DNA of 36,986 nucleotides from Dehalococcoidia bacterium (lineage in GTDB: Bacteria; Chloroflexota; Dehalococcoidia; GIF9; AB-539-J10), in contig JAUVZB010000022.1 of NCBI GenBank assembly GCA_030602785.1, forward strand, positions 1-36,986, in the 5' to 3' direction. Shown in pieces: positions 11,267 to 13,006 of this stretch (positions within the stretch are counted from its first letter, which is position 1; every line of letters starts with the position of its first letter). The notes beneath the pieces are model-generated. The model saw nothing but the letters and a program-made list of their open reading frames with translations, ran no database searches and was not told the origin of the DNA. The translations under genes were made by a program, and so were the position numbers.

Positions 11267-11473
11267 TCAGTCCTTGATGCCGTGCCTTTTCTTGAATCGC
11301 TCCACACGGCCCATCGTGTCGACGATTCTCTGCTGGCCTGTGTAGAACGGGTGGCACTTACTGCAAATCTCCACCCGGACCTCCGGTTTCGTAGCCCCAA
11401 CGGGGAACGAATTGCCGCACAGGCACGTTACCTTGGCATCGTCATAGTACTTGGGGTGTATCTTGGCTTTCAT
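11267..11473 (-). CDS. rpmE: 50S ribosomal protein L31 (zinc-binding type)
   Basis: A 68-aa ribosomal protein, [20 protein letters not shown] at the start, then [18 protein letters not shown] and [14 protein letters not shown]. The CLCG and CSKCH cysteines form the zinc site of the C+ form of L31. The ATG overlaps the rpmA stop by four bases (ATGA). It is third in the L21-L27-L31 series, followed 77 bases later by DUF1385. Confidence 0.97.
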
Positions 11474-11721
11474 GGGTATACGCTGACCTTCTTCTGGAAC
11501 TTGCTTGCCGGCTCGAACTTGACGTGGCCGTCGATGAGCGCGAACAGAGTGTAGTCTCTGCCAACTCCGACGTTCTGTCCCGGCTTCATGCGGGTGCCAC
11601 GCTGTCGCACGATGATGTTTCCTGCGCGAACAACCTCGCCTCCGTACTTCTTCACGCCGAGGCGCTTCGGCTGACTATCTCGTCCGCACCTGGTGCTGCC
11701 GCCACCTTTTTTGTGTGCCAT
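11470..11721 (-). CDS. rpmA: 50S ribosomal protein L27
   Basis: An 83-aa ribosomal protein located at the peptidyl-transferase centre. [40 protein letters not shown] and [19 protein letters not shown] are diagnostic. The N-terminus begins directly with AHKKGGG, so it is not the cleaved Firmicutes form. It starts 3 bases after the rplU stop and overlaps rpmE. Confidence 0.98.
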
Positions 11722-11724
11722 TAG

Positions 11725-12045
11725 CTACTCTCCCGGCATAACCACCCGGTCAACCACCAGGCGGGTGTACTGAGTCCTGTGTCCTGTCTTCTTGCGGTAC
11801 CTTGTCTTGTTCCTGTACCGGAACACGACGATTTTCTTGCCCTTGATCAGCCCCATCGAGGTCGTAACGACTTTGGCCCCCTCAATCATGGGAGAGCCAA
11901 CATGCGTCGTCTCGCCGTCCGACACCAGCAATACCCTGTCAAGCTCTACAGTCTCGCCGTTCGGCGCATCGAGAAGGTCGACATCCAAGGTCTGTCGCGG
12001 CTCGACTTTGAATTGTTTTCCACCGGATTCGACTATGGCGTAAAT
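11725..12045 (-). CDS. rplU: 50S ribosomal protein L21, probable AUU start
   Basis: A 106-aa protein (E. coli L21 is 103 aa) reading YAIVESGGKQFKVEPRQTLD, GDRVLL-like core (ELDRVLLVSDGE), VGSPMIEGAKVV and KTRYRKKTGHRTQYTRL. The usual L21 start is M-Y-A-I-V. Here the codon before TAC-GCC is ATT at 12043-12045, with GGAGGT six bases upstream. The only in-frame ATGs (12072 and 12069) lie in or just after the -10 box of a near-consensus promoter, upstream of the expected RNA start. Initiation at AUU, as in bacterial infC, is therefore the best reading. If the ATG were used the protein would carry nine extra residues. First gene of the ribosomal operon. Confidence 0.9.
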   Translation of the reverse strand: MYAIVESGGKQFKVEPRQTLDVDLLDAPNGETVELDRVLLVSDGETTHVGSPMIEGAKVVTTSMGLIKGKKIVVFRYRNKTRYRKKTGHRTQYTRLVVDRVVMPGE

Positions 12046-12070
12046 CTCCGCACCTCCAGAACAGCGCATC

Positions 12071-12100
12071 ATTGTAGCATCAGGACGAACGGAGCGTCAA
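12071..12100 (-). promoter_or_regulatory. Promoter of the rplU-rpmA-rpmE operon
   Basis: On the minus strand TTGACG (12095-12100), an 18-base spacer and TACAAT (12071-12076) give a start near 12064, about 19 bases before the ATT start codon. A strong GGAGGT lies in that short leader. There is no room for a structured L21 leader. Good consensus match and correct position. Confidence 0.65.
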
Positions 12101-12238: not shown

Positions 12239-12515
12239 GTAGGGGCGAGGCATGCCTCGCCCGTCGGGTTGTGTGCCGTTCGCGGTTGTGTTGACCTTTG
12301 CGGCGTTCCGTGACTCCTGTGTAGGGGCGGACCTCCGTGTCCGCCCGCAGGGTAGTGTGTCGTTCAAGGCTGTGTTGACCTCTGCGGCGTTGTGTGACTC
12401 CTGTGTAGGGGCGGACCTCCGTGTCCGCCCGCAGGGTAGTGTGCCGTTCACGGTTGTGTTGACCTTTGCGGCGTTGTGTGACTCCTGTGTAGGGGCGGAC
12501 CTCCGTGTCCGCCCG
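12239..12515 (+). repeat. Tandem array of hairpin-plus-spacer units (82/84/84 bp and a partial)
   Basis: Units start at 12239, 12321, 12405 and 12489. Each of the first three is a hairpin followed by a 57-base spacer. Units 2-4 carry a 27-base hairpin with stem GGGCGGAC/GTCCGCCC. Unit 1 carries a 25-base hairpin with a different stem, GGGCGAGGC/GCCTCGCCC. The 57-base spacers are highly similar (ending GCGGCGTT, then GTGACTCCTGT) and the two-base difference in unit length is entirely in the hairpin. Unit 4 keeps the hairpin but has a different, shorter following sequence leading to the hairpin at 12542. A relative of the unit-1 hairpin plus spacer occurs inverted at 36470-36554. Confidence 0.85.
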
Positions 12516-12541
12516 TGGAGGATTGGGGTATGTGGTCTCCT

Positions 12542-13006
12542 GTAGGGGCGCTTCGGGAAGCGCCCGGAGATGGTGTCAGGACACGGTTGTAGCTAGCGAG
12601 CGGGACGTGAACAGCGCGGGCGTGGTACAGGGGGCCGTGGTCGCGTGTGGTGGCCGGGTCGTTCTCGAACGACCCCTACGCCGGAACCACATCTTGCCCC
12701 CGCCACCGTGGGCGGACACAGAGGTCTGCCCCTACGTTATGAACCACCACCATGTCCCCACGGGCAACCGCGGGCTGCTATCGTGACCTTCATCGATCGC
12801 CGGGCGGTTCGCTGATGGCCCCGCGGGGGTTGTGGTGTGTGGTCTACGGTAGGGGCGCTTCGAGAAGCGCCCCGTGATTGACGTGCTACGAGGTTGGAGC
12901 CATCTCGGGGAGTAGGTGGTTGTGGTGGCCGGCAGGTTTCAAAGTTGGATTTGGGCTACAACCGTGGTTTCAGGCAATGGCCGAGCCGTTCACGAACGGT
13001 ATCTAC
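12542..13006. repeat. Convergent hairpin-doublet repeats upstream of and into the hydrolase gene end
   Basis: Two related modules. The first runs from a plus hairpin at 12542-12566 (stem GGGCGCTTC/GAAGCGCCC) to a minus hairpin at 12655-12679 (stem GGGTCGTTC/GAACGACCC), with a second minus hairpin at 12710-12735. The second runs from 12849-12873 to a decayed minus hairpin at 12983-13006. Sequence between the paired hairpins is similar in both, in E1 (9895-10030) and inverted at 36653-36808. The last hairpin overlaps the 3-prime end of the hydrolase gene. The rest of 12736-12848 has no visible gene. Confidence 0.75.

Follow-up and report, generated by a model that had tools for sequence, protein, structure and literature searches.

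The rplU gene for ribosomal protein L21 in a 36,986-nt stretch of a Dehalococcoidia genome (the window; GCA_030602785.1, contig JAUVZB010000022.1, positions 1 to 36,986) appears to begin at an AUU codon, a start that is strongly supported by sequence comparison. Three observations carry it: the codon is conserved in the family to which the genome belongs, the ATGs upstream of it are poorly conserved, and many loci of the class offer no canonical start upstream. The best joint explanation, which we consider quite probable, combines a promoter, a leader of about 18 nt, initiation of a normal L21 at AUU, and an output of L21 that would depend on initiation factor IF3.

The window is part of a 2.57-Mb assembly of 141 contigs, and the nearest named matches to its L21 in the genome collection are Dehalococcoidia MAGs (96%, 84% and 73% identity for L085, L086 and L087, respectively). 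On the minus strand, the promoter is followed by rplU, rpmA and rpmE. Read from AUU, rplU (11725..12045, minus strand) encodes 106 aa, and whole-profile matches identify the product as L21 (TIGR00061, 105.4 bits against a cut-off of 43.7, E 1.6e-30; PF00829, 110 bits against a cut-off of 27, E 1.3e-31). The ATG of rpmA (11470..11721, minus strand; ribosomal protein L27, TIGR00062, E 2.7e-37) lies 3 nt past the rplU stop, and the last 4 nt of rpmA overlap rpmE (11267..11473, minus strand; ribosomal protein L31, NF000612, E 4.3e-30). When the protein is taken from 12042 on, its residue 1 aligns to position 1 of the TIGR00061 profile, so homology begins one codon past the ATT, where the sequence reads TAC GCC ATA GTC (YAIV). 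Two repeats are also found upstream of rplU or in its neighborhood: an 84-bp tandem unit in 3.1 copies (12258-12515, upstream of the gene) and a 61-nt repeat with GTAGGGGCGCTTCG present at 12511-12571 and 12818-12878.

The predicted rplU promoter (12100-12071, minus strand) is near-consensus, its -35 element TTGACG (12095..12100) and its -10 element TACAAT (12071..12076), 18 nt apart, together having 10 of the 12 consensus bases. From the position of the -10 element, transcription is expected to start at about 12064, which would leave a 5' leader of about 18-19 nt (12046..12064). The sequence-only reading had noted that no in-frame ATG, GTG or TTG lies between this point and the ATT, and that the ATT stands exactly where the first codon is expected; both statements hold. 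The start codon (12043..12045) is preceded, at a spacing of 6 nt, by an extended Shine-Dalgarno sequence, GGAGGT (12052..12057), which with the next base forms a 7-nt match to the anti-Shine-Dalgarno complement (GGAGGTG).

Two in-frame ATGs are found further upstream (12067..12072, minus strand), the first of which is the start that a mechanical search for open reading frames assigns. A protein starting at 12072 or 12069 would carry the extension MMRCSGGAEI or MRCSGGAEI and would call for a transcript from further upstream or for leaderless initiation, which occurs in bacteria. We regard this as very improbable. As the earlier reading had pointed out, the two ATGs overlap or directly follow the TACAAT box. 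The ATG at 12072-12070 overlaps it and that at 12069-12067 begins one base after it, and the strong Shine-Dalgarno sequence lies downstream of both. In the genus (seven sequences including the window), TTGAC, TA(A/C/G)AAT, GGAGGTG and ATT are kept throughout, whereas both ATGs are present in only two sequences (the window and L036), one is present in L033, and the remaining four have neither. Downstream of the ATT, most differences within the genus are at third codon positions (648 of 986); over the 45 nt that precede it this bias is weaker (90 of 197), although the proportion exceeds one third there too.

We next refer to ATT, ATC or ATA at the codon directly before the conserved L21 block as ATH, and to ATG, GTG or TTG as canonical. 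L21 matches were obtained in 226 genomes, and starts were read in 165 Dehalococcoidia loci (55 plus 110, the latter comprising the 30 best-scoring and 80 chosen across families); 61 L21-bearing genomes, the f36 genomes among them, fall outside this sample. All but one of the loci (164/165) were classified, L193 being dropped because its profile match lies in another frame. By eye, L193 (genome G062) reads ATC TAC GCA after AGGAGGAAAGCG, possibly another ATC start with a frame problem.

In the family of the window (f1), the start codon is ATT or ATC in 33 of 35 genomes and ATG in none; the earlier reading had named ATT conservation in relatives as a check, and ATG at this position as the observation that would point to a sequencing error. 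This conservation is far beyond chance. The two exceptions (L039 and L043, from one genus) have an alanine or threonine codon at this position; two codons before it they have a GTG, which is itself preceded by GGAG at a distance of five nt. All 18 loci of the sister family f2 have a canonical codon further upstream instead.

In the class as a whole, 91 of 164 loci are ATH (75 ATT, 14 ATC and 2 ATA), spread over 37 of 65 family codes. The subset drawn from the class (109 loci, namely the 30 best-scoring and 79 countable ones chosen across families) contains 56 ATH loci, which represent 34 of its 61 families. The other 73 class loci comprise 23 with a canonical codon at the same position, 42 in which a canonical codon precedes the block by 2-6 codons, and eight with neither. 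Four of these eight, all from family f10 (L169, L176, L186 and L056), seem by eye to start at an ATC or ATT that lies one codon before this position, such as the ATC of ATC AAC TAC. Since many members of the class have canonical rplU starts, the ATH trait must be dispensable.

In over half of the ATH loci (56/91, in 25 families), the reading frame upstream of the ATH codon runs into a stop before any ATG, GTG or TTG is reached, so that a canonical start would cost them conserved L21 residues; this counts further against an upstream ATG as the general start. The stop lies within 9 codons of the ATH codon in 18 loci, as in L008, where a TGA is found two codons before the ATT. Five ATH loci (L065, L076, L173, L177 and L213) have a canonical codon nearby and no Shine-Dalgarno sequence that serves the ATH codon, and in these the canonical codon may be the true start, which gives a safer count of 86 loci in 33 families. 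Ten further loci have a canonical codon nearby, yet their Shine-Dalgarno sequence fits the ATH codon; in two of them, from family f16, the TTGs precede the Shine-Dalgarno sequence. ATT is likewise found at rplU in six f16 genomes that consist of a single contig; each has 19-38 reductive-dehalogenase matches, and we infer them to be Dehalococcoides and Dehalogenimonas.

A tree of L21 with 105 rows requires 17 changes of the ATH state, compared with 35 for shuffled labels; its topology is weak and poorly resolved, its columns are too few for the origin to be dated, and the f10 loci were counted as canonical. The state thus appears to be inherited but often changed, and it may plausibly have arisen once, early in the class, and been lost repeatedly.

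Three other explanations of the ATT were rejected. A sequencing error is at odds with the recurrence of the codon in 91 genomes, and an isoleucine codon inside a longer protein with the in-frame stops shortly upstream in many loci. A special initiator tRNA that reads AUU was sought with an initiator-type stem search in 12 genomes; nine have candidates with 0-1 mismatches, all with CAT anticodons, six of which ARAGORN confirmed as tRNA-Met (cat), while G078 gave only matches with 3 mismatches and G009 and G110 gave none. The genome of the window itself encodes an initiator-type tRNA-Met with the ordinary CAT anticodon.

The arrangement seen in the window recurs in the class. We counted as a promoter any -35/-10 pair that agrees with the consensus at 9 or more of its 12 bases, has a spacing of 16-19 nt and stops 8-60 nt short of the ATH codon; such a pair is present in 79 of 91 ATH loci, compared with 3.7% of 1,820 control sequences made by shuffling blocks of two bases. 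The distance from the end of the -10 box to the ATH codon is 23-35 nt in 69 of these 79 loci, which implies a short leader, of about 16-28 nt if transcription begins 7 nt past the -10 box. No canonical in-frame codon precedes the ATH codon within the predicted mRNA in 64 of the 79. A Shine-Dalgarno sequence of at least 5 nt at a spacing of 5-9 nt is found in 77 of 91 ATH loci. The mean match to the anti-Shine-Dalgarno complement is 6.0 for ATH rplU (n=91), 3.98 for canonical rplU (n=64), 5.35 for rpmA (n=80) and 5.53 for ATH infC (n=30), the match of infC being no longer than that of rpmA (P 0.36; the sequences are related, so that P values in this comparison overstate the differences).

In other bacteria, the rplU-rpmA operon is preceded by the L21 leader RNA described in Rfam. 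Such a leader would control the same operon as the start codon considered here, but the predicted rplU leader is too short for it. An RNA leader was rejected: Rfam gave no family match in the window and no L21-leader match in the window or in 19 class loci, and the two matches that these 20 sources did give are not leaders. One is a 5S rRNA in L060, about 390 nt upstream of the conserved L21 start; the other is a selenocysteine tRNA gene (tRNA-Sec) in the class member L062 (1908-2001), on the same strand as rplU and about 105 nt upstream of that start. In the window, the fold of 12063-11983 is not more stable than those of shuffled sequences (z +1.0).

Outside the class, 400 Chloroflexota genomes were scanned with exact patterns, which miss divergent L21, for ATH or a canonical codon followed by L21; the ATH pattern matched in 37 genomes and the canonical one in 128. 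On reading, the 37 ATH matches comprise 27 class L21 genes, one chance match within the class (G037) and nine matches outside it. The nine were rejected as evidence that the trait extends beyond Dehalococcoidia, as a family search placed their L21 elsewhere: seven of these L21 genes have ATG or GTG at the codon, L362 has ATG one codon earlier, and L361 (G536) has CTG. Together with 16 genomes picked from different families, they make up 25 Chloroflexota from outside the class that were checked by profile, none of which has ATH at the L21 codon. A canonical codon is present at this position or one before it in 23 of them; L361 has the CTG, and L339 has no canonical codon among the 15 codons shown. 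In L361 a GTG is also found seven codons before the CTG. Of 72 records not titled Dehalococcoidia, 71 could be counted (L104 was dropped); the trait is absent from these, all of which have ATG, GTG or TTG at the codon or one before it.

The genes compared as controls in the class start canonically for the most part. The gene next to rplU, rpmA, has ATG, GTG or TTG in 79 of 80 class motif matches, and in the infC loci rpmI is canonical in 26/26 and rplT in 12/13. Among the S10-alpha genes, 23 of 32 groups have a canonical codon in at least 80% of rows at the picked column, a control that leans canonical because the column was picked for canonical codons with a Shine-Dalgarno sequence; the ATH score of this comparison also counted internal columns, exceeded the canonical score in some groups, and is no test of starts. 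The other nine groups have no clean start column; in one of them, S17, an in-frame ATG lies upstream in all eight sequences shown.

The exception is infC, which encodes IF3 itself. Its expected first codon is ATH in 30 of 37 class loci (23 ATA, 5 ATC and 2 ATT; for example TAG CCA GGA ATA in G072), and in 19 of these 30 the stretch from the nearest stop upstream to the conserved block contains no canonical codon. The infC of the window genome (L300, G000:C22:82000-83300) has ACG at the usual codon and ATG ten codons upstream, with no clear Shine-Dalgarno sequence by eye. In the 37 genomes, both genes are ATH in 14, infC alone in 12, rplU alone in two and neither in two, and rplU was not seen in seven. 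The two traits overlap but are not strictly coupled.

Translation would then proceed as follows. The promoter at 12100-12071 would yield an rplU mRNA carrying about 18 nt of leader, on which initiator fMet-tRNA (anticodon CAU), aided by GGAGGTG, would start at the AUU (12045-12043) and produce an L21 beginning fMet-Tyr-Ala. Given the CAT anticodon of the initiator tRNA-Met, AUU would pair with a third-base mismatch, and IF3 would be expected to reject many initiation complexes for this mispairing. In a purified system that contained fMet and 1.5 uM IF3, the reported share of full-length product is 31.1% at AUU/CAU versus 90.4% at AUG/CAU, the remainder being drop-off and re-initiation (PMC10158994). 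The output of L21 would accordingly vary with the occupancy of 30S subunits by IF3, rather than being simply low, and an excess of free 30S over IF3 would raise L21 and perhaps, by coupling, L27. We thus envisage IF3 as the sensor and free 30S excess as the signal. A strong promoter and a strong Shine-Dalgarno sequence in front of a weak codon argue that output is conditional, not merely low, and the strength of the first two argues that the codon is held by selection. Taken together with the short leader, these features suggest IF3-sensitive translation of L21. IF3 control of rplU, which the earlier reading had mentioned as an unusual possibility, would fit the ATH starts of infC in the class, though not the infC of the window genome, which lacks one. 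More tentatively, rplU and infC of Dehalococcoidia might form a small IF3-sensing regulon that acts through AUU, AUC and AUA, in which 30S excess titrates IF3 and so releases synthesis of IF3 and of L21 (with L27 coupled), balancing 50S against 30S with neither an RNA leader nor a ribosomal-protein repressor.

The AUU could also be genuine and merely lower L21 translation against the strong promoter, with the level of IF3 taking no regulatory part, a reading we hold to be possible though rather doubtful. In Staphylococcus aureus reporters, the output from non-canonical starts is described as about 10% of that from AUG when the medium is poor, and as reaching 30% for ccpN when it is rich (PMC13009471); the infC of the window genome lacks a non-AUG start of this class, and the response to IF3 in Dehalococcoidia is deduced. 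A weaker promoter or Shine-Dalgarno sequence would serve the same end, yet most ATH loci have both of them close to consensus, and the codon class has been kept over much of a bacterial class. IF3 is also reported to counter AUU initiation in vitro (PMC10158994), and infC shares the codon class in 30 of 37 class loci. Neutral retention seems unlikely: AUU would have arisen once, been compensated by the extended Shine-Dalgarno sequence, and drifted since with occasional loss. The many changes on the poorly resolved tree agree with such inheritance, and the longer Shine-Dalgarno matches of ATH rplU could be compensation. However, a one-base change to AUG is always available and is seen in no genome of the family, while f2 uses a canonical codon further upstream instead. 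IF3-dependent output from an AUU start is the explanation we prefer.

In Escherichia coli, infC starts at AUU and is under autocontrol by IF3. The rplU case resembles it in placing a start of the AUU/AUC/AUA class in a gene of the translation machinery, and the infC of most class loci belongs to the same codon class; it differs in that rplU encodes a 50S protein, so that control would act on a gene other than that of the repressor, and in being known from genome data. In S. aureus, infC starts at AUA, and this start, the AUU of cvfC1 and the AUA of ccpN are reported to sit behind extended Shine-Dalgarno sequences (PMC13009471). Like rplU, cvfC1 and ccpN combine a conserved AUU or AUA start with such a sequence, but they do not encode ribosomal proteins and were mapped by retapamulin ribosome profiling (PMC13009471). 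The Streptomyces sigR gene, reported from experiment to be repressed by IF3 (PMC5472188), is likewise a non-infC gene with a conserved non-canonical start, a very strong Shine-Dalgarno sequence and a start misplaced by annotation; unlike rplU, it starts at GTC, encodes a sigma factor and is conserved within Streptomyces (PMC5472188).

Among the titles and abstract openings listed for the open full-text literature, we found no earlier report of an AUU start of rplU. A preprint by Gvozdjak and Samanta reportedly deals with genes that prefer non-AUG starts and may hold an rplU case. To our knowledge, no gene other than infC would keep such a start as widely as rplU keeps its AUU or AUC. The device is already known from infC, sigR, cvfC1 and ccpN, and what appears to be new is a ribosomal-protein gene that keeps it over much of a class. 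Gene callers limited to ATG, GTG and TTG would misplace the start of rplU in these genomes. The trait reaches the f16 genomes, the probable cultured relatives, and so can be tested there. For Dehalococcoidia, the AUU start suggests how the rplU-rpmA operon might be controlled, and it may make an essential part of the ribosome responsive to a translation-initiation factor.
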